Source of the DNA: Ancylobacter sp. TS-1
GTDB taxonomy: Bacteria > Pseudomonadota > Alphaproteobacteria > Rhizobiales > Xanthobacteraceae
Direction: 5' to 3'
NCBI RefSeq assembly: GCF_009223885.1
Contig: NZ_CP045144.1
Span: 3,522,001-3,586,000, forward strand
DNA: 64,000 bases
Part shown: in pieces, positions 55,309 to 64,000 of the stretch
Layout: each line of letters starts with the position of its first letter
Position numbering within the stretch: position 1 is the stretch's first letter
Made by a program: the position numbers and the translations under genes
The notes under the pieces: model-generated
What the model saw: only the letters and a program-made list of their open reading frames with translations
The model's database searches: none
What the model was told of the DNA's origin: nothing

Positions 55309-55640
55309 CAGATGAGCGCTCCGCCGCCGAAGGAGAAGAACGACAGGAAGAAGCTCGAGGCGGCGAAAGCGATCGACAGGCCGAACACGATCTGGATCAA
55401 CCGGCGGAAGCCGCCCGACGTATCGCCGAAGGCCAGAGCCAGCCCGGTCGAGATGATGACGATGACGGCGATGATCTTGGCGACGGGGCCTTCGATCGAT
55501 TGCAGGATCGACTCCAGCGGCGCCTCCCATGGCATGGAGGAACCTGCGGCATGCGCGCTGGCCGTGGCCAAAAGGCTGATGCAGGTGGCAGAAATGGCCA
55601 GCTGGGCCGCGCTGCGGGCGCGATTGAGCGATCGGATCAT
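55308..55640 (-). CDS. trbC: Conjugal transfer pilin TrbC (VirB2-like)
   Basis: The pilin subunit precursor of 110 residues. A long signal peptide ends near residue 31 (TASAHA-AG), followed by SSMPWEAPLESILQSIEGPVAKIIAVIVIISTGLALAFGD and a second hydrophobic helix LIQIVFGLSIAFAASSFFLSFF. In RP4 the mature pilin is cyclised by TraF. No traF is in the window. The ATG at 55640 overlaps the trbB stop (ATGA). Confidence 0.92.
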   Translation of the reverse strand: MIRSLNRARSAAQLAISATCISLLATASAHAAGSSMPWEAPLESILQSIEGPVAKIIAVIVIISTGLALAFGDTSGGFRRLIQIVFGLSIAFAASSFFLSFFSFGGGALI

Positions 55641-56608
55641 GTGAGATCTCCGGTGAGGACGGGGGTGACGCGGTAATCGCCATCGGGGCCAAGGCCCTCG
55701 ATAGATCCGAGTTCGGTGAGCCGGCGCGCCGCGCCGCGGCCCGAGAGCACCGCGATGACGTCGATGGTCTCGGCGATCAACGCGCGGGGCACGGTGACGA
55801 CGGCTTCCTGGATGAGCTGTTCCATCCGCCGCAGCGCGCCGATGGCGCTGCCGGCATGGATGGTGCCGATGCCGCCAGGATGGCCGGTGCCCCAGGCCTT
55901 CAGCAGGTCGAGAGCTTCCGCACCGCGCACCTCCCCGACCGGGATGCGGTCGGGACGCAGGCGCAGCGCCGAGCGAACGAGATCGGACAGCGTCGCCACG
56001 CCATCCTTGGTGTGCATGGCGACGAGATTCGGCGCGGCGCATTTCAGCTCGCGCGTATCCTCGATCAGGACGACGCGATCGGAGGTTTTTGCGACCTCAG
56101 CGAGCAGCGCATTGGTGAGCGTGGTTTTTCCGGTCGAGGTGCCGCCCGCGACAAGTATGTTGGCGCGGGACGCCACGGCCGAGCGCAAGGCTTCGGCCTG
56201 TCCGCCGGACATGATCCCGGCGCGGACATAGTCCTCCAGCGTGAACACCGCGACGGCGGGCTTGCGGATGGCGAATGTCGGTGCCGCGACCACCGGCGGT
56301 AGCAGGCCCTCGAACCGTTCTCCCGTCTCGGGCAGTTCGGCTGAAACGCGCGGGGCGCCCGCATGAACCTCGGCGCCGACGTGATGGGCGACCAGACGCA
56401 CGATGCGCTCGCCATCCGCTGCCGACAGCTGTTCACCCGTGTCGCACAACCCTTCCGAGAGCCGGTCGATCCACAGCCGCCCGTCCGGGTTCAGCATCAC
56501 CTCGACGACTTCAGGGTCTTCCAGATGCCGGGCGATCGCCGGACCCAGTGCCGTACGCAGCATCCGTGCGCCGCGGGCAAAACCCTGATGATGTTGTGCT
56601 GCCGCCAT
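55637..56608 (-). CDS. trbB: Conjugal transfer ATPase TrbB (VirB11-like)
   Basis: Hexameric traffic ATPase at the base of the secretion channel, 323 residues. The N-terminal domain has [18 protein letters not shown]. The RecA-like domain has Walker [16 protein letters not shown] (about 152-166), Asp box [10 protein letters not shown], Walker [32 protein letters not shown] and the His box TIHAGSA. It is the first gene of the trb operon. A pair of inverted repeats lies immediately upstream. Confidence 0.94.
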
Positions 56609-56613
56609 CCGAA

Positions 56614-56660
56614 CCCCGACAATGCCGGGGTCATGACGATCTCATCCCGGGTGGGGATGA
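56614..56660 (-). promoter_or_regulatory. Inverted repeats at the head of the trb operon
   Basis: Two hairpin-forming repeats stand just before the trbB ATG: CCCCG-N7-CGGGG (56614-56630), which covers the ribosome-binding position, and TCATCCC-N5-GGGATGA (56642-56660). GTCATGAC lies between them. They are suited to bind a ribbon-helix-helix or LysR-type regulator, or to mask trbB translation. No consensus promoter is evident. Confidence 0.5.
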
Positions 56661-56782
56661 TTAAAAGAGCCCGATATTAGGCCGGTTCAACAGGATTCGA
56701 TCCGCGTCGCAGCGTGGCGTGCAATGACAGGCGAACGGCGGAACTGCTGCAGTGATCGGAAGCGGCATAGGGAGCCTCCGCT

Positions 56783-57682
56783 TCACGGCTTGAAACAATG
56801 CTCTCTATGCCAGCGCAGGAAATGGGGATGGGGTCGCTCGATCAGTCTGCGGGGCGCGATGGCGCGGCCGTCTTTGTTGATGAAGGCGCGCACGCCTTCG
56901 GGATCGTTGGTCTGCCGGGAAATGAGGATGTCCAGATCATCCGAGAGGCTGATCAGTCCGCGATCGAACATCCAGTGTGCCGTGCCAGAAAGCGCCAACC
57001 CGTTGCTGACGATGTCGGGGCCACTCGCTTCGACAGGCCGGATATGCGCGGCTGCCACCTCGGCGCGCCCGCCGCCATTGATCAGCTTGAGCCCGCTGAT
57101 GGCACAGCGCTCGTCATAGGCGCGCAGCACGACGCGCCGGAAGATGCGGTCGCGGACGATACGAGAGGAGAAAACGTCGATGCGCTCGCGGGGCTGCTCG
57201 AACGCGAATGGCGCCTGTTCTTCTTCAAAGCCTGAGAGGGACGCACCCTCGTCGACGCGGGGCAGCAGCGGCTCGCTGTCATTCAGCCCGAGCGTGACGA
57301 TCCGGTTGAAATCCTCCGGCGAGAGCGGACGCACGGCGGCTTGCGCACGCCCCGAAATGCGCCCGTCAGCGTTCAGCACACCGCGCTCGACGACGCCATC
57401 CGCATCGGTGAACGGCACCGGGTTGGCAAAATCGAGATAGCTGCCCGGTTCGATGAGAGCGAGATACATGCCCGGAGCGGTGGGATCGGGAACGACGCGC
57501 TCGACCCTGGCGATCGCGAAATAGCCACGGGTCTCCGTCACTTTCCGGGGTTCGTAGTAGACGATCCAGTCGCCGACGCAGGCCTCGACGCGTCCCAGAT
57601 ATGGGCGCGGGAACTGATACCGCTCAGCCGGGCTGTCGTCATAGATCGAGTCCGAGCGGTGAATGAAAACGCCGAATCCCAT
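56783..57682 (-). CDS. HNH endonuclease with unusual N-terminal domain
   Basis: A 299-residue probable nuclease. The C-terminal third is an HNH_2-type domain: RRVVLRAYDERCAISGLKL with C193, the histidine of VAAAHIRPVEASG (H213), the asparagine of GPDIVSNGLALSGTAHWMFDRGLI (N227) and H236. Residues 1-120 form a separate domain (FGVFIHRSDSIYDDSPAERYQFPRPYLGRVEACVGDWIVYYEPRK...GYFAIARVERV) resembling EVE/PUA-like nucleotide-reading modules that pair with HNH or McrA-type nucleases. That suggests a modification-dependent restriction enzyme. It is ICE cargo, divergent from fic. Confidence 0.75.
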   Translation of the reverse strand: MGFGVFIHRSDSIYDDSPAERYQFPRPYLGRVEACVGDWIVYYEPRKVTETRGYFAIARVERVVPDPTAPGMYLALIEPGSYLDFANPVPFTDADGVVERGVLNADGRISGRAQAAVRPLSPEDFNRIVTLGLNDSEPLLPRVDEGASLSGFEEEQAPFAFEQPRERIDVFSSRIVRDRIFRRVVLRAYDERCAISGLKLINGGGRAEVAAAHIRPVEASGPDIVSNGLALSGTAHWMFDRGLISLSDDLDILISRQTNDPEGVRAFINKDGRAIAPRRLIERPHPHFLRWHREHCFKP

Positions 57683-57813
57683 GTGCCATCCCTGATCCCC
57701 ATTCGATCGTATCGCAGAATGGGCATCATTCGGCAGCAGGGGGCCATTCCCCCTGTCGCGCGCGTCACGTTATCGACCCAGCATCACGCTCTGAGTTCTC
57801 CTTCGACGGCCAT

Positions 57814-57885
57814 GAGCGATAGGACGGCTATCTATCAATCACGTGTCCGCTATTATGTGAGCGATAGAAGGAGACCCTATCGCTC
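57814..57885 (+). promoter_or_regulatory. Triple GAGCGATAG repeat with ribosome site in a hairpin loop
   Basis: GAGCGATAG occurs at 57814-57822 and 57859-57867 and inverted as CTATCGCTC at 57877-57885, directly before the fic ATG. The last two form a perfect 9-base-pair stem whose 9-base loop AAGGAGACC contains the Shine-Dalgarno sequence. The first copy forms its own GATAG-N5-CTATC palindrome (57818-57832). This can be a repressor operator, an RNA switch, or both. Confidence 0.8.
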
Positions 57886-58986
57886 ATGGTGTGGAACTGG
57901 ACGCAGCACGGCTGGCCGCATTTTGCCTATGATCCGGTCGCCCTCGAACCGCTGGAGCGGCGCTTCCTGCTGCTCACCGGCGAGGTGATCGGTGCGGTCC
58001 GGCATGTCAGCGAGGGCGAGCGGGACCTGCTGCGGATCGAACTCCTCAGCGACGAGGCGGTCAAGACCAGCGCGATCGAAGGGGAGACGCTGGATCGCCT
58101 CAGCGTGCAATCCTCCCTGCGCCGCCAGCTCGGCCTCGACACAGACAATCGCAACGTGAAGCCAAAGGAACGAGGCATCGCGGAGATGATGGTCGATCTC
58201 TACCGGAGCTGGGCGGATCCCCTCGACGCCGACACGCTGTTCCGCTGGCACCGCATGTTGATGGCGGACAGACGGCATCTGGAAACGATCGGCGGCTACC
58301 GTCTCCATGAAGACGCGATGCAGATCGTGTCCGGCCGCCAGGATCGGCCGACGGTGCATTTCGAGGCGCCGCCATCCTCTCGGGTTCCGGAAGAGATGGC
58401 TGCCTATCTAACTTGGTTCAATGGCTCGGCCCCGGACGGCGACAATCCCCTGCCGGCACTTACCCGGGCCGGTATCGGACATCTCTATTTCGAAAGCATC
58501 CATCCCTTCGAGGACGGCAACGGACGCATCGGGCGAACGCTCGCTGAAAAATCCCTCGCACAGAACATCGGCCAGCCGACGCTGATCGCGCTCGCCCATA
58601 CCATCGAGCAGCATCGCAAGGCCTATTACGATCAGCTCGAGATCCATCAGCGGACGCTCGATGTCACGGGTTGGCTGGTCTATTTCGCGGAAACGATCAT
58701 CGCGGCCCAGCAGACAACGCTCGGCCGCGTCGCCTTCCACATCGCCAAGGCGCATTTCTACGATCGCTTCCGCGACAAGTTGAACGAACGGCAGGAAAAG
58801 GTGATCGCCCGTCTCTTCCGTGAGGGCCCTAGCGGCTTCACGGGCGGCCTGAGCGCGGAGAACTACCTCGCGATCACCGGCACCTCACGCCCCACCGCCA
58901 CGCGCGACCTGCACGATCTGGTCGAGAAAGGCGCCCTGACGCGAATTGGCGAGCGCCGCTACACGCGCTACCACCTGAACCTGTGA
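57886..58986 (+). CDS. Fic family protein with DUF4172 and inhibitory helix
   Basis: A 366-residue Fic enzyme, probably transferring AMP to a target protein. Residues 1-85 match DUF4172 (WNWTQHGWPHFAYDP) and contain the inhibitory motif TSAIEG (T61...E65 G66), the class II [S/T]xxxE[G/N] pattern that blocks the ATP site. The catalytic loop HPFEDGNGRIGR (206-217, H206) is fully intact. A winged helix at the C-terminus (LSAENYLAITGTSRPTATRDLHDLVEKGALTRIGERRYTRYHL) suggests DNA binding and autoregulation through the upstream repeats. It acts as a self-inhibited enzyme rather than a toxin with separate antitoxin. It lies in the ICE cargo. Confidence 0.88.
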   Translation: MVWNWTQHGWPHFAYDPVALEPLERRFLLLTGEVIGAVRHVSEGERDLLRIELLSDEAVKTSAIEGETLDRLSVQSSLRRQLGLDTDNRNVKPKERGIAEMMVDLYRSWADPLDADTLFRWHRMLMADRRHLETIGGYRLHEDAMQIVSGRQDRPTVHFEAPPSSRVPEEMAAYLTWFNGSAPDGDNPLPALTRAGIGHLYFESIHPFEDGNGRIGRTLAEKSLAQNIGQPTLIALAHTIEQHRKAYYDQLEIHQRTLDVTGWLVYFAETIIAAQQTTLGRVAFHIAKAHFYDRFRDKLNERQEKVIARLFREGPSGFTGGLSAENYLAITGTSRPTATRDLHDLVEKGALTRIGERRYTRYHLNL

Positions 58987-59066
58987 CCTGATGCTCGTTA
59001 TCGCGGCATGGCACCTGAGTACGTCGAACTTCTCCCCCTCGGAGGAGCCGGTGCCGCTGACGGCCG

Positions 59067-60020
59067 TCAGCACGTTTTGACGAGCGGCTCGTAAGGTTCG
59101 AACTTTATTTTACTCGCCCTCAGGCCGGCGCCGTCATTGGGGCGGTCGAGCACGAGAAATAGCCTCGATAGAGGATGGCCAGGATCGAGCAGCCATCGAC
59201 AAAGGGAGCGCGTCTTTGGCGAGAGCCCTACAGGCTCCAGACTGATGACTCCCTTTACAGGGAAGCGGCCCTGGCGTGTTACTGCATTGAAGTATTCTGC
59301 GAATGCTCCTGCCGCCAAATCTGAAATGGCCGCGAGATCCTCAATGGCTAGACTGCCATCGTCGGATAGCGTCGTCGCGCATCGGAGATGGCCAAGGTCG
59401 TGCTTAAGGTAGTGCACTCCCACCGCCGCAACGATCTTGGTAAGCTGCGTTAATTGGCCGTCGTTCGCCGCAATCTGGTCCTGGTCGACGATCCAAAGAA
59501 CGTTCTGGTTCGGGGCTGAAAAGCCCGCGACGAGGTAACTGCCCAGATGAGCTACTCTCAGGACCTGTTCCTGAACGGACTTCTTCCAGACTCCGAGCAA
59601 CTCTCGAGCTTCGTCGTCGTCGGAACGCTCGAACAGACTGCCCGTATTCTTGTCGACAGCGACAACAATCAGAGCCCCTTCGATCTCATTGGCCGCATTT
59701 ATAAAAACAGGTAAAGCTGATCGGCGGAAACGGTCGTTCAATGCCTTAAACGATAAGCGACGGGACTTGAGAATTTCTTGACGAAACGCCCGTTGCGCCT
59801 GAAACCACCAGTCATTAGCGTCTAAATCGAGCAGCAGAAACGCGTAGGTATCGTAACGCGAGCCAGCGTGGGAACCGCTGAAATCGGCGACCGACACGAG
59901 TTTCTGTCCTCTTGTGCCGTTAGGAAACCCTGGCGCCGAACTGACGTATTTTTCAAATATCTCGGATAGGACCGAACCAAGTCCCTGGCTTGAGAAACGA
60001 TCCGAGACGACGTGGATCAT
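59067..60020 (-). CDS. Unrecognised 317-residue protein of the TcmP operon, possible RNase H-like fold
   Basis: The third gene of an A/T-richer operon with TcmP and the three-Cys protein, starting 7 bases after TcmP. No signal peptide or membrane helix. Spaced acidic residues on predicted strands and a late helix, D46 in LVSVADFSGS, D179/D181 in VLWIVDQDQI and D234 in IEDLAAISDLAAGAFAEYF, resemble the DUF3800 type of RNase H-like protein, where such residues bind metal. The similarity is my reading of the pattern and is weak. In that case it would be the nuclease effector of the operon. Otherwise its role is unknown. Confidence 0.6.
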   Translation of the reverse strand: MIHVVSDRFSSQGLGSVLSEIFEKYVSSAPGFPNGTRGQKLVSVADFSGSHAGSRYDTYAFLLLDLDANDWWFQAQRAFRQEILKSRRLSFKALNDRFRRSALPVFINAANEIEGALIVVAVDKNTGSLFERSDDDEARELLGVWKKSVQEQVLRVAHLGSYLVAGFSAPNQNVLWIVDQDQIAANDGQLTQLTKIVAAVGVHYLKHDLGHLRCATTLSDDGSLAIEDLAAISDLAAGAFAEYFNAVTRQGRFPVKGVISLEPVGLSPKTRSLCRWLLDPGHPLSRLFLVLDRPNDGAGLRASKIKFEPYEPLVKTC

Positions 60021-60027
60021 GACAGCC

Positions 60028-61296
60028 CTATCGGCCGAGCTTCCGGATGAACGACTTTTGGGGACGGTTACGCACCTGATCGGTCCAGCTTAGGGCCTTG
60101 GCGGCGGGCCTTGGGCGGCCGTCTTCCGTGAAAACATCAATTTCGCTGTAGGCGTCGCGCAGTTGGACGATCGCTTCGGAAACGAGATCAAAGGTCAGTG
60201 GCGTCTCATTGCAATGCGCGCGAAATAGATCGCCGATCGTGACAGGCGTCGCCGCATCTGGCGCGTCATCGCGCACTAAGCGCGGAAGCTGATCTATTGC
60301 CGCGGCGAGGGAGTCCTTACGGGCGTCGACGCCGAAATCAAATTCGAGCTTCGCCTGATCCAGATTGATGCTGGGATCGAAGCCAAGAGCGTTGAAGCCG
60401 GCATCACCGGGGTGAACGAAAACATTGCTCATCGACCAATGCAGCCTTGCCATCTCGTCTCGAGCGCGGGTGTGCTTGGACAGATGCAGCAACCAGTAGG
60501 ATCTACGGCTATCAGCCGAACGGATAAAGAATGGCGTGTAGTAGTCTGCTCCTGTGCTGCAGATGATGTGCTTGTAGAGCATGCCTTGAATCACCTGACG
60601 CTGCCCCTGTTCAGTCTTGAGCGCCCTAATCACGTCGCCCATGGCGGGGTCAAGTTCGATTGCCTGCCCGCCCATGGTTCTCGCTGTCGCATCCGAAAAG
60701 TAGTCAATTAGTGAGTCAACTGAGAAGGTGATCAAGACCTCGGGATTACGAAGATCGGCGAAAATCTCGCGGATTGTCGCGAATGAAACCGCACTCCATC
60801 CATACTGATCCAAGAAGAATAACGACCGGTGGCTAGGGCCGCGGGCTTTAATCGCTCGTATAATTTCTGTCGATTGCTCCTCAAACAAACCCGTCAATAT
60901 TGTAATTGAATTTCCAACATCTTTCCCGAATTCAGAATTCATCAGTTCATGAGAAAGGAACTCAGTATGTTCCCGGCGCTTGTCAATGAAGAAAAATTGC
61001 GCCCTCATGGCAAATTCATTCTGCCGCGTCATCGTAAGGCCGACTGCAGCAGCCTTTACAGCCCGAAGAACTCTTAATGGGGATCCTGCAACAATCGTAG
61101 ACCCGTTTTGATAGGCGCCGCCGCCGCAAAAGCCATCTACCACCGTCAGGTTCAGCTCCCGACGCCGGGGATTGGACGAAAGAATGTTGATGTACCGTTC
61201 GATATAGCTGGCGAACACATCGTGTTTAGCGATGCTGTGAGTGCCGATCTTCGGCAAAGGCTGTCCCAATTTCCAGTCGTAATGCTTGACGGCCAT
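60028..61296 (-). CDS. tcmP: Three-Cys-motif partner protein TcmP
   Basis: A 422-residue protein with TcmP features: LPKIGTHSIAKHDVFASYIERYINIL at the N-terminus, a methyltransferase-like glycine loop TVVDGFCGGGAYQNG (52-65), GSPLRVLRAV (71-80), FFIDKRREHTEF as the acidic strand after it, and LFFLDQYGWSAVSFATIREIFADL. The fold is probably a Rossmann-type methyltransferase with a helical C-terminal half. The family is named for occurring beside three-Cys proteins, as here, where the DUF5131 gene is 48 bases upstream. Biochemical function is unknown. The composition is visibly A/T-richer than the trb genes, suggesting separate acquisition. Confidence 0.85.
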   Translation of the reverse strand: MAVKHYDWKLGQPLPKIGTHSIAKHDVFASYIERYINILSSNPRRRELNLTVVDGFCGGGAYQNGSTIVAGSPLRVLRAVKAAAVGLTMTRQNEFAMRAQFFFIDKRREHTEFLSHELMNSEFGKDVGNSITILTGLFEEQSTEIIRAIKARGPSHRSLFFLDQYGWSAVSFATIREIFADLRNPEVLITFSVDSLIDYFSDATARTMGGQAIELDPAMGDVIRALKTEQGQRQVIQGMLYKHIICSTGADYYTPFFIRSADSRRSYWLLHLSKHTRARDEMARLHWSMSNVFVHPGDAGFNALGFDPSINLDQAKLEFDFGVDARKDSLAAAIDQLPRLVRDDAPDAATPVTIGDLFRAHCNETPLTFDLVSEAIVQLRDAYSEIDVFTEDGRPRPAAKALSWTDQVRNRPQKSFIRKLGR

Positions 61297-61344
61297 ATTT
61301 GCCGCGACCTTTCAAATCGACAGCCCTGCAGACTACATGACTGA

Positions 61345-62124
61345 TCAGATAATCTCAGGCGCCATAGGCATATCATTCCAGATTTGTCCACGGTACTCGC
61401 GGCCGTTGGCCTTTTTGGAACGCTTCTTGTTATCCTTGCCCCAAGTTCCCCACTGTTTAAAGAAAAAAGCTGTGCTGAAGGTCTCGCAGCGGGTGTAAAT
61501 TTCGTCGATCCAGTCCTCGCGAATTGGGCGAGCGTTCGTGCCGCTTTCGCCGCCAACGATCGCCCAGTGAATGTCGGTTAGGTCGACGGCGCCCACCGGC
61601 CCGATTAACGGCTCGAATGAGATGAACCGGATGGCGGCAGGAACCGCACGCAAATGATCTATCCGTTCGACAACGTCGGCGTTTTCGACGCTGGTACCAA
61701 GCCAGACATTGGGAAGCACGTCGGGGATAGCACGCGCCACGACTTCAGCCATGCGCTTGGGGCGCTTGGACAGTATCTGATAGTTATGATGCGGCGTCTC
61801 TCGCATGACCCGCCAAACGTCGAGAATAAAGTCCTCGCTAACGGCGTCGTGGAAGAGGTCGCTCATCGAATTGACGAAGATCTTTCTGGGCTTTCGCCAG
61901 CCATAGGGGATGTCCAGCGCGGCGCGATCTTCACGGACGACGCCATTCCATATCGCCCGTTTGCCGCTCTTTCGGGTCAGCCCCTCGTACTTGGGAACCC
62001 CCATCGCCTCGAGCCGGCGAGCCATCTGCATTGCATAGCAGTTGGTGCAGCCAGCGGTGACGATTGAGCAGCCCGCGACGGGATTCCAGGTGGCGTCTGT
62101 CCACTCGATCTGTGTTTCAGCCAT
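61345..62124 (-). CDS. Three-Cys-motif protein, DUF5131 / phage Gp37-Gp68 family
   Basis: A 259-residue protein opening IEWTDATWNPVAGC and carrying the cysteine cluster C19-x6-C26-x2-C29 in GCSIVTAGCTNCYA, where the spacing suggests an iron-sulfur cluster of the radical-SAM kind. Further family blocks are RKIFVNSMSDLFHDAVSEDFI, YQILSKRPKRM, LPNVWLGTSVEN, IRFISFEPLIGPV, WAIVGGESG and FFFKQWGTWG. Homologues occur in phages and defence-like neighbourhoods. The reaction is unknown. The ATG at 62124 was chosen as the family start, while an upstream ATG at 62142 adds six residues. First gene of the operon with TcmP. Confidence 0.85.
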   Translation of the reverse strand: MAETQIEWTDATWNPVAGCSIVTAGCTNCYAMQMARRLEAMGVPKYEGLTRKSGKRAIWNGVVREDRAALDIPYGWRKPRKIFVNSMSDLFHDAVSEDFILDVWRVMRETPHHNYQILSKRPKRMAEVVARAIPDVLPNVWLGTSVENADVVERIDHLRAVPAAIRFISFEPLIGPVGAVDLTDIHWAIVGGESGTNARPIREDWIDEIYTRCETFSTAFFFKQWGTWGKDNKKRSKKANGREYRGQIWNDMPMAPEII

Positions 62125-62388
62125 GGCATTAACCTCTTCCATCGCGCCCGGAAAGGCGGTTCATCGAGGGGGATAGTCAACTCGCATAAGAAAATATCGC
62201 GTTAACCATGACCGCTTCGATCGAGCTTCGTAGCGACGATATCAGGCAGGGGTGCGTCAGTTCCGTCGCACAGTTGTTCAACCTGAACTGGAAGCTGTCG
62301 ACGACCGGGGCGGGCTTTGCAATGGTCGTGATTGGTCCGCCGATACCGACCCTGCCCGAAAGCAGGCCTTCTCACAGTCCGAGCAGGA
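62125..62388. other. Gap between cargo operon and RHH-traG genes
   Basis: 264 bases containing the presumed minus-strand promoter of the cargo operon near an A/T-rich patch (about 62180-62205, CGCATAAGAAAATATCGCGTTAACC). I find no complete gene. In related elements the RHH gene is followed directly by trbB, so this gap contains one junction of the cargo insertion. I could not identify target-site repeats. Confidence 0.45.
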
Positions 62389-62835
62389 TCAACTCCGGCT
62401 GCTCCCGTCTTTCTCCGCTCCCCCAACATCCTCCCCGATCTCCTGCCGCAGCTGAGGCCCTTTCGCCAGGCGCCGACCGAGGGCGCGGGTGTAGGCTACG
62501 TAGCGCTCCGAGACCTTGGCCCGTGTGGCCTGGGCGGCCGGCTCGGGCAGCGCTGGCGTTGTAGCGAGCCAGAAGCGGATGAAAGTGGCGAAGGCCTCGG
62601 TAGAGATGCCGAGGTCGCGCTCCAGCCGCGCGAGGCGGCGATCGATCTGGCCGAGGCGCCGGGCAAGAGCGGCCTCCTGACGCTCGGCGCTGTCGGGGGA
62701 CAGGAAGGAGGCGATCGCGGCCTGGGCGATCAGGGACATGGGCTGGTCGCGCTGGGCGGCATAGTGCGCCAGCATGTCCATGATGTCGGGCTCGAGATAG
62801 ACGGATATCTGCGCTTTCTTCGGGCGACCTGCCAT
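62389..62835 (-). CDS. Ribbon-helix-helix (CopG-like) protein of the conjugative element
   Basis: A 148-residue protein with an N-terminal ribbon-helix-helix (GRPKKAQISVYLEPDIMDMLAHYAAQRDQPMSLIAQAAIASFL, about 3-45), a coiled-coil-like middle (ERQEAALARRLGQIDRRLARLERDLG) and a disordered tail. A CopG-like gene normally stands between traG and trbB and may regulate transfer genes or help the relaxosome. It starts 5 bases after traG. Here it is cut off from trbB by 5.8 kb of cargo. Confidence 0.87.
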   Translation of the reverse strand: MAGRPKKAQISVYLEPDIMDMLAHYAAQRDQPMSLIAQAAIASFLSPDSAERQEAALARRLGQIDRRLARLERDLGISTEAFATFIRFWLATTPALPEPAAQATRAKVSERYVAYTRALGRRLAKGPQLRQEIGEDVGGAEKDGSSRS

Positions 62836-62840
62836 GGCGA

Positions 62841-64000
62841 TCACAGCTCCATGCCGTCATTGGGATTGAGGCTGACCTGCCGCGCCACACCTTGCATCAG
62901 TCCGGTCATGCGGCGGTTCCGGGTGGCGACGTCCTCCATCTCGTCGTCGCGATCCCTGTCGAACTCGAACTCGTTCTCGATGAGCTGCATTTTCTCGACT
63001 GCCTTCACGCGGCTGAGCTCGGGCTGGTGCCGGTGCGCGGAGCCGGTCGGGTCTTCGTCTCGACCTTCGTCCGCGGTGCTCCCGCCAGTACCCTCATGGG
63101 GCCTGGGCACCGGCAGCGCGGTCCAGTCATCGGGCTGCACGGCTGCACCACTAGTGGGCGTTGGCGGCGGCAAAAGCCGGTCCCGAAACCGCGCGTCTTC
63201 GTAATAGCGGGCCTTCTTCGCCCGGATTGGCGGTGTACCCGCGACCATGACGATCTCGTCCGTGGGCGGCAGTTGCATGACCTCGCCGGGGGTGAGCAGC
63301 GGGCGGGCAGTTTCCGAGCGCGAGACCATGAGATGGCCCAGCCACGGCGAGAGCCGGTGGCCGGCATAGTTTTTCATCGCCTTCATCTCGGTGGCGGTGC
63401 CTAGCGCATCGGAGACGCGCTTGGCGGTGCGCTCGTCATTGGTCGCGAAGCTCACGCGGACATGGCAGTTGTCGAGGATCGAGTTGTTCGGCCCATAGGC
63501 CTTCTCGATCTGGTTCAGCGACTGGGCGATGAGGAAGGCTTTCAGGCCATAGCCGGCCATGAAGGCGAGCGCCGATTCAAAGAAGTCGAGCCGGCCGAGT
63601 GCGGGGAACTCGTCCAGCATGAGCAGCAGACGATGGCGTCCGGCCTTGGCCTGCAGGTCCTCGGTGAGGCGCCGGCCGATCTGGTTGAGCAGGAGGCGGA
63701 TCAGCGGCTTGGTGCGATTGATGTCGGAGGGCGGCACCACGAGGTAGAGGGTCGACGGTCGCTTGCCGCCGACGATATCTGCGATGCGCCAGTCGCAACG
63801 CCGCGTCACCTCGGCGATCACCGGATCGCGGTAGAGGCCGAGAAAGGACATGGCGGTGGAGAGCACGCCCGAGCGCTCATTGTCGGATTTGTTCAGCAGT
63901 TCGCGGGCAGCGCTGGCAATGACGGGATGAGGACCCGTATCGCCGAGATGCGCGGTCTTCATCATGGCGTCGAGCGTGGTCTCGATCGGCCGCTTCGGAT
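62841..64000 (-). CDS. traG: Conjugal transfer coupling protein TraG (VirD4-like), C-terminal part
   Basis: The type IV coupling ATPase that feeds the relaxase-DNA complex to the channel. The frame is open to the window edge (reading PKRPIETTLDAMMKTAHLGD across 64,000), so the start and Walker A are outside. Visible parts are LLNKSDNERSGVLSTAMSFLGLYRDPVI, STLYLVVPPSDINRTKPLIRLLLNQIGRRL, Walker B HRLLLMLDEFPALGRLDFFESALAFMAGYGLKAFLIAQSLNQI and FATNDERTAKRVSDALGTAT. A charged tail rich in Asp and Arg ends the protein. About 386 residues are in the window. Confidence 0.93.
   Translation of the reverse strand, partial: PKRPIETTLDAMMKTAHLGDTGPHPVIASAARELLNKSDNERSGVLSTAMSFLGLYRDPVIAEVTRRCDWRIADIVGGKRPSTLYLVVPPSDINRTKPLIRLLLNQIGRRLTEDLQAKAGRHRLLLMLDEFPALGRLDFFESALAFMAGYGLKAFLIAQSLNQIEKAYGPNNSILDNCHVRVSFATNDERTAKRVSDALGTATEMKAMKNYAGHRLSPWLGHLMVSRSETARPLLTPGEVMQLPPTDEIVMVAGTPPIRAKKARYYEDARFRDRLLPPPTPTSGAAVQPDDWTALPVPRPHEGTGGSTADEGRDEDPTGSAHRHQPELSRVKAVEKMQLIENEFEFDRDRDDEMEDVATRNRRMTGLMQGVARQVSLNPNDGMEL

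Follow-up and report, generated by a model that had tools for sequence, protein, structure and literature searches.

Three tightly packed genes in the genome of Ancylobacter sp. TS-1 raise the question of whether two putative modification enzymes and a third protein, whose family is missing from current libraries, act together as a conflict system, and what this third protein might contribute. We analyzed them in silico within a 64-kb stretch of the 3.96-Mb single-contig genome; this whole stretch is referred to below as the window. As an earlier note on this DNA had described, DUF5131, TcmP, and a 317-amino-acid third protein, which we call P3, are encoded by consecutive minus-strand open reading frames (ORFs); 48 bases separate DUF5131 from TcmP, and 7 bases separate TcmP from P3. 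We refer to the three together as the triad:

61345..62124, minus strand: DUF5131, a three-cysteine, radical S-adenosylmethionine (SAM)-like protein (PF07505, 334.5 bits; PADLOC PDC-M41B, E 9.1e-99)
60028..61296, minus strand: TcmP, a predicted class I SAM methyltransferase with a C-terminal winged helix-turn-helix (wHTH)-like region (TIGR04474, 198.8 bits)
59067..60020, minus strand: P3, member of a family of predicted RNase H fold without prior description (conserved acidic residues D46, E151, D179, D181, E227, D228, D234)

The triad is a known candidate pair, DUF5131 and TcmP, extended by a new family to which structural modeling assigns an RNase H fold. We tentatively read it, with somewhat less than an even chance of being right, as a modular three-gene conflict cassette on a conjugative element in which a modification-gated nuclease would serve defense. 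The computed basis consists of the methyltransferase fold predicted for TcmP, the three cysteines of DUF5131, the predicted RNase H fold of P3 with its acidic layout, and retention across lineages.

The DUF5131-TcmP pair and the P3 family

The match of DUF5131 to PF07505 (E 4.9e-100; gathering cut-off 28.9 bits) places it in this family. Translated from the start at 62124 (an in-frame alternative ATG lies at 62142), it carries the cysteines that had been noticed before, C19-x6-C26-x2-C29, and in an alignment of 10 DUF5131 sequences, counting that of the window, all three occur in every one. This spacing departs from the radical SAM cluster motif, C-x3-C-x2-C, and the score against TIGR04471 (rSAM_mob_pairA) is 68 bits, below the cut-off of 355; we make no claim of radical SAM membership and consider DUF5131, judged by its sequence, as probably an iron-sulfur enzyme of the radical SAM type. 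TcmP scores well above the TIGR04474 cut-off of 53 bits and contains the DGFCGGG loop, which bears out the identity previously given to it. Its predicted structure displays an RlmJ-like, Rossmann-type class I methyltransferase fold with a glycine-rich motif I and an acidic motif IV (mostly D-[QP]-x-G in the family), and TcmP is predicted from this model to be a SAM methyltransferase. It is about 14% identical to RlmJ, a 23S rRNA m6A methyltransferase, from which it differs by its wHTH-like tail, its motif IV, and its DUF5131 partner.

Both proteins match component models of the PADLOC candidates PDC-M30/M41, TcmP the A models (PDC-M30A, E 1.4e-24) and DUF5131 the B models, and their genes are adjacent; this assignment is made from component models and adjacency, without PADLOC's own system rule. 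Since the pair is thus already catalogued as a phage-defense candidate and PADLOC holds no model for P3, the novelty claimed for the system in the earlier note applies to the three-part form alone. To our knowledge, no reaction or target has been established for the pair. Text searches of the accessible literature returned no paper mentioning DUF5131, PDC-M41, TIGR04471, or "radical SAM mobile pair", and in the accessible parts of papers using "three-Cys-motif", TcmP appears only in a table. Among 397 genomes of the order, 48 have a TcmP above the cut-off, and TcmP has matches in 61 plasmid records. On one P. aeruginosa plasmid (L055, 4190-4965), DUF5131 is split into two adjacent ORFs beside TcmP, while intact copies occur elsewhere; on two other plasmids (L049 and L054), annotated radical SAM genes lie near DUF5131-TcmP pairs, with a dTMP kinase gene alongside in L049.

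P3 is a family new to the libraries that we searched by sequence (Pfam, NCBIfam, PADLOC, and PDB). At E<=1, neither Pfam nor NCBIfam nor PDB yields a match for the window's P3 (in PDB, the same holds for DUF5131 and TcmP), and PADLOC yields one irrelevant match (E 0.054). When 32 aligned members were searched, the window's included, none matched NCBIfam at E<=0.05; the matches to Pfam (scattered and unrelated, best E 0.0043) and to PADLOC (four unrelated models with one member each, best E 0.015) were not credible, and the P3 profile found a single unrelated PDB sequence (E 2). Relatives occur in 8 plasmid records and 23 genome contigs, and a pattern scan added one viral contig (L042); no homologue was detected at E<=0.1 among 50,697 phage records. 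A single-protein search found it in 2 of 385 genomes of the class, and alignment searches found it in 5 of 200 relatives and, with at most five first-look candidates scored per genome, in 5 of 397 genomes of the order, the window's own genome being counted each time. Its hosts include Alpha- and Betaproteobacteria, Myxococcota, Planctomycetota, Verrucomicrobiota, Acidobacteriota, and a Mycobacterium.

Structure prediction gave P3 an RNase H fold (predicted local distance difference test, pLDDT, 87) that most resembles RNase HII, in agreement with the RNase H-like character suggested for it before. D46, D179, D181, and D234, the acidic residues to which attention had been drawn, are the same in all 32 aligned sequences, and E151 and D228 are kept in 31. 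Matched by secondary structure rather than by superposition, these conserved acids are predicted to fall at the positions of the catalytic acids in RNase H, which suggests that P3 cuts RNA or DNA. The aligned ranges of P3 and E. coli RNase HI start at 39 to 3 and at 37 to 1, so that D46 would correspond to D10 of the latter, provided that the first strand is free of gaps. PDB titles for E. coli RNase HI refer to D10, E48, and D134 as mutated or as belonging to the active site; the remaining active-site assignments of this enzyme are presumed here. From RNase HII and HIII, P3 is set apart by a sequence identity of 7-14% and a root mean square deviation of 4.1-5.8, and it lacks the Glu that RNase HII has next to its first Asp.

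In BFVD, two viral models matched P3 at E<=0.001, one of them a phage DUF3800 protein (PF12686), and P3 resembles this family in that its first strand carries D-x-x-G and a conserved Asp lies close to its C-terminus. By sequence, however, P3 is not a DUF3800 member, although the folds agree: none of the 32 members matches PF12686 at E<=10, a profile comparison against eight DUF3800 proteins was not significant (probability 0.3%), and all eight have D-E at the first strand, where all 32 P3 sequences have F or Y (position 47). The eight were kept from 13 matches; five were dropped as fragments, as lacking a clear ORF, or as less clean.

Linkage of P3 to the pair across genomes

We scored linkage with profiles built from the loci. 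Both DUF5131 and TcmP lie beside P3 in 12 of 23 genome-contig loci (L019-L025, L033, L036, L037, L039, and L041), a share that leans towards triads because the scan patterns were derived from an alignment (A3) of four P3s that all came from triads. Further triads are present on S. meliloti pSymA (L003), on A. tumefaciens pAt (L004), and in the genome G789 (L043). Among plasmids with P3, these two close groups have the pair and four distant records that were read do not. In a Hydrogenophaga contig (L031, 5737-6396), P3 is neighbored on the opposite strand by a short ORF that matches TcmP, without DUF5131; judged from the sequence, this locus is perhaps a decayed triad.

In all 15 triad loci of the P3 tree, a whole TcmP is accompanied by DUF5131 and P3 lies directly beside the pair. 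When all ORFs within 4.5 kb of P3 were clustered for 35 loci, TcmP recurred in 16 and DUF5131 in 15; other recurrent groups were antisense readings of the triad genes or were confined to two or three loci. The tree of 36 P3s places the window's protein in a clade of ten (support 100/99), all with the pair. Presence of the pair changes six times on this tree, at least four of these changes being forced by well-supported branches, compared to 11.8 changes in shuffles, of which 0 of 500 were as low as six. By these counts, P3 is stably associated with the pair in one clade, and elsewhere on the tree the association arose or disappeared several times.

The triad, which reaches taxonomically as far as Mycobacterium, occurs in five gene orders. 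With D for DUF5131, T for TcmP, and P for P3, the row D-T-P is found in the window, L021, L024, L039, and L041; P is divergent from D-T in L003, L004, L020, L022, L023, L025, and L033; and P-D-T (L036), P facing T-D (L037), and D divergent from T-P (L019) occur once each. Identities to the window's DUF5131, TcmP, and P3 differ by gene, amounting to 74, 59, and 45% in Qipengyuania (L021), 76, 25, and 41% in Hyphomicrobium (L025), 45, 48, and 29% in Xanthobacter (L037), and 87, 26, and 28% in Brevundimonas (L041). The triad genes therefore have partly separate histories yet stay together, and the comparison of L041 with the window suggests an exchange of one gene within the cassette, with DUF5131 kept and TcmP and P3 diverged. 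By analogy, mixed histories of co-retained genes would fit modular conflict systems. The histories are still shared in part, since the rank correlations of pairwise identities among the three proteins are positive (0.41 to 0.48). A second TcmP gene accompanies the triad in L003, L004, L019, L020, L022, L023, L037, and L041; in all of these except L019 and L041 it is of the short S. meliloti type.

In Qipengyuania, a DarT-DarG pair, an ADP-ribosylation toxin-antitoxin (244.6 and 424.6 bits; cut-offs 150 and 250), directly precedes DUF5131-TcmP-P3, and an apparent five-gene unit in this order is seen both there (L021, 4068-8936, by profile) and in L024 (4019-8918, by homologous ORFs). On S. meliloti pSymA, an 845-amino-acid helicase-like ORF, which we take to be hna, the record being unannotated, adjoins a locus with P3, DUF5131, TcmP, and also a short TcmP; P3 is divergent there. 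According to the accessible part of one study, hna and a TcmP (SMa2243) are both up about twofold in a nolR+ strain (PMC12445080).

Setting of the triad in the window

The triad operon coincides with the GC minimum among the 3-kb stretches of the window (from 54.8% versus 67.4% overall), and the A/T-richness reported for it thus holds. Conjugation genes flank it on either side, TraG (PF02534) together with an ORF in CopG position on one side and a TrbB-like ATPase on the other, and the HNH and Fic proteins described as its companions are indeed its neighbors:

62389..62844, minus strand: ribbon-helix-helix-like ORF at the CopG position within the conjugation cluster, bounding the cargo slot upstream (RHH_4 matched weakly, E 0.049)
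57886..58986, plus strand: Fic protein, SoFic-like, convergent to the triad (PF02661, PF13776; PADLOC SoFic, E 4.7e-44)
56783..57682, minus strand: HNH protein, like modification-dependent restriction nucleases (PF13391, 33.9 bits)
55637..56608, minus strand: TrbB-like ATPase of conjugation, bounding the cargo slot on the other side (PF00437 T2SSE, E 7e-36)

"CopG" and "TrbB" are our readings of the ribbon-helix-helix-like ORF and the T2SSE-family ATPase. The interval between them (56609-62388, 5.8 kb here) looks like a cargo slot. The Fic protein scores 51.3 bits against NCBIfam SoFic (cut-off 550). The HNH protein scores 97.7 bits against NF045808 (cut-off 180), has a very weak EVE match (E 0.18), and resembles phosphorothioate-DNA restriction nucleases; going by its sequence, it is possibly a modification-dependent restriction enzyme. 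Both are probably cargo separate from the triad.

Relatives of the CopG-position ORF at 89-94% identity were found in ten stretches of same-genus genomes. In genomes of the genus, the interval to TrbB measures about 14.3 kb (G395), 20.9 kb (G398), and 26.5 kb (G386). None of the ten fetched stretches contains the triad. TrbB downstream of the CopG-position ORF is likewise absent from all ten, so that no empty cargo site was seen. Prediction of promoters and terminators gave 0 and 2, respectively, not above shuffled sequences.

Proposed function and competing explanations

In the mechanism that we propose, DUF5131 and TcmP would chemically mark nucleic acid, TcmP would choose where to modify by means of its variable body and its wHTH-like tail, and P3 would cut nucleic acid according to the mark; phage or plasmid nucleic acid entering the cell, or the RNA of an infected host, would be destroyed, and an unthreatened host would be spared. 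TcmP has diverged where DUF5131 is well kept, which suits it as the target-choosing part. A more specific form, in which P3 founds a nuclease family and is the executing arm of a three-part immune system, DUF5131 and the RlmJ-like TcmP install a hypermodification that P3 reads as self or foreign, and TcmP alleles are exchanged as specificity modules, strikes us as unlikely.

Several observations weigh against a defensive cassette of this kind. The radical-SAM reading of DUF5131 depends on a below-cut-off match and a non-canonical cysteine spacing. For the P3 model, the nine best PDB matches reach Foldseek query TM (template modeling) scores of 0.32-0.39, and at 7-14% identity to the PDB fold matches the likeness to RNase H is one of fold only. 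Ten of the 23 genome-contig P3 loci have neither pair gene in the stretch covered, which includes one side only in part for L028 and L034; a toxic nuclease dependent on the pair for self-protection would not be expected to occur by itself. Of the 48 genomes of the order with TcmP, just 2 (that of the window and G789) have P3 adjacent to it. All 13 plasmid TcmP loci that were hand-picked for variety from the 61 records, known P3 holders left out, have DUF5131 and none has P3. Solo P3s and P3-less pairs thus show that neither strictly needs the other. The earlier view of P3 as a fixed component holds insofar as it is a recurrent partner, in 12 of 23 loci and throughout the window's clade; as a universal partner of TcmP we reject it. 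Among the P3-bearing genomes of the order, a sample less biased than the pattern scan, the pair adjoins P3 in 2 of 5, the window's own included, and in G579 TcmP and P3 are about 212 kb apart. As to phage resistance, the accessible part of the source describes PADLOC's PDC systems as putative, guilt-by-embedding predictions that are not validated, and reports that 32 of 100 P. aeruginosa strains carry PDC-M30 and that 68.8% of these carriers are phage-resistant, a correlation that is not specific since 19 of 22 common validated systems showed the same leaning (PMC10855318). In S. meliloti without pSymA, hna alone gives complete phage resistance back, according to the part of that study available, so the triad is not needed for this resistance (PMC12445080).

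The main rival, in view of RlmJ, Trm1, and RNase HII being the nearest folds, moves the chemistry to RNA: DUF5131 and TcmP would modify tRNA or rRNA, and P3 would be an RNase that attacks RNA left unmodified or altered by phage, leading to abortive infection or plasmid addiction. RlmJ, Trm1, and radical-SAM RNA enzymes act in this way, but fold similarity does not give the substrate, and the prevailing motif IV of TcmP is unlike the D-P-P-[YF] of RlmJ. The wHTH-like tail would suit DNA, and DarTG, the neighbor in two triad loci, acts on DNA. We regard the RNA version as rather unlikely.

Also unlikely, in our judgment, is that P3 is an independent, self-sufficient defense nuclease merely co-mobilized with the pair in defense islands. 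The solo P3 loci speak for it, as does the lack of P3 in most pairs examined, together with the defense-type genes that lie near pairs anyway. Against it stand the direct adjacency of P3 to the pair in every triad locus of the tree (with gaps of 7-8 bases in three co-directional loci), the presence of the pair in the entire window clade, and the fact that no other family recurs widely beside P3; when seven genes neighboring solo P3s were scanned with Pfam, they revealed no common partner. That the cassette instead serves the conjugative element, by marking its own nucleic acid against host restriction or by making hosts dependent, is improbable: the triad does sit among conjugation genes, bounded by the CopG-position ORF and by TrbB, the DarTG-triad of Qipengyuania also directly precedes a TrbB-like gene, and 29 of the 61 plasmid records with a TcmP match are typed conjugative, but none of 13 annotated features in the A. 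tumefaciens locus (L004, the only other one surveyed) is a conjugation gene, and the named neighbors of triads, DarTG and Hna, are of anti-phage type.

P3 stands for a family that current libraries miss, and the triad makes the function of the DUF5131-TcmP pair testable. Since the active site of P3 can be predicted, single-residue mutants could probe the modification-restriction logic of the pair.

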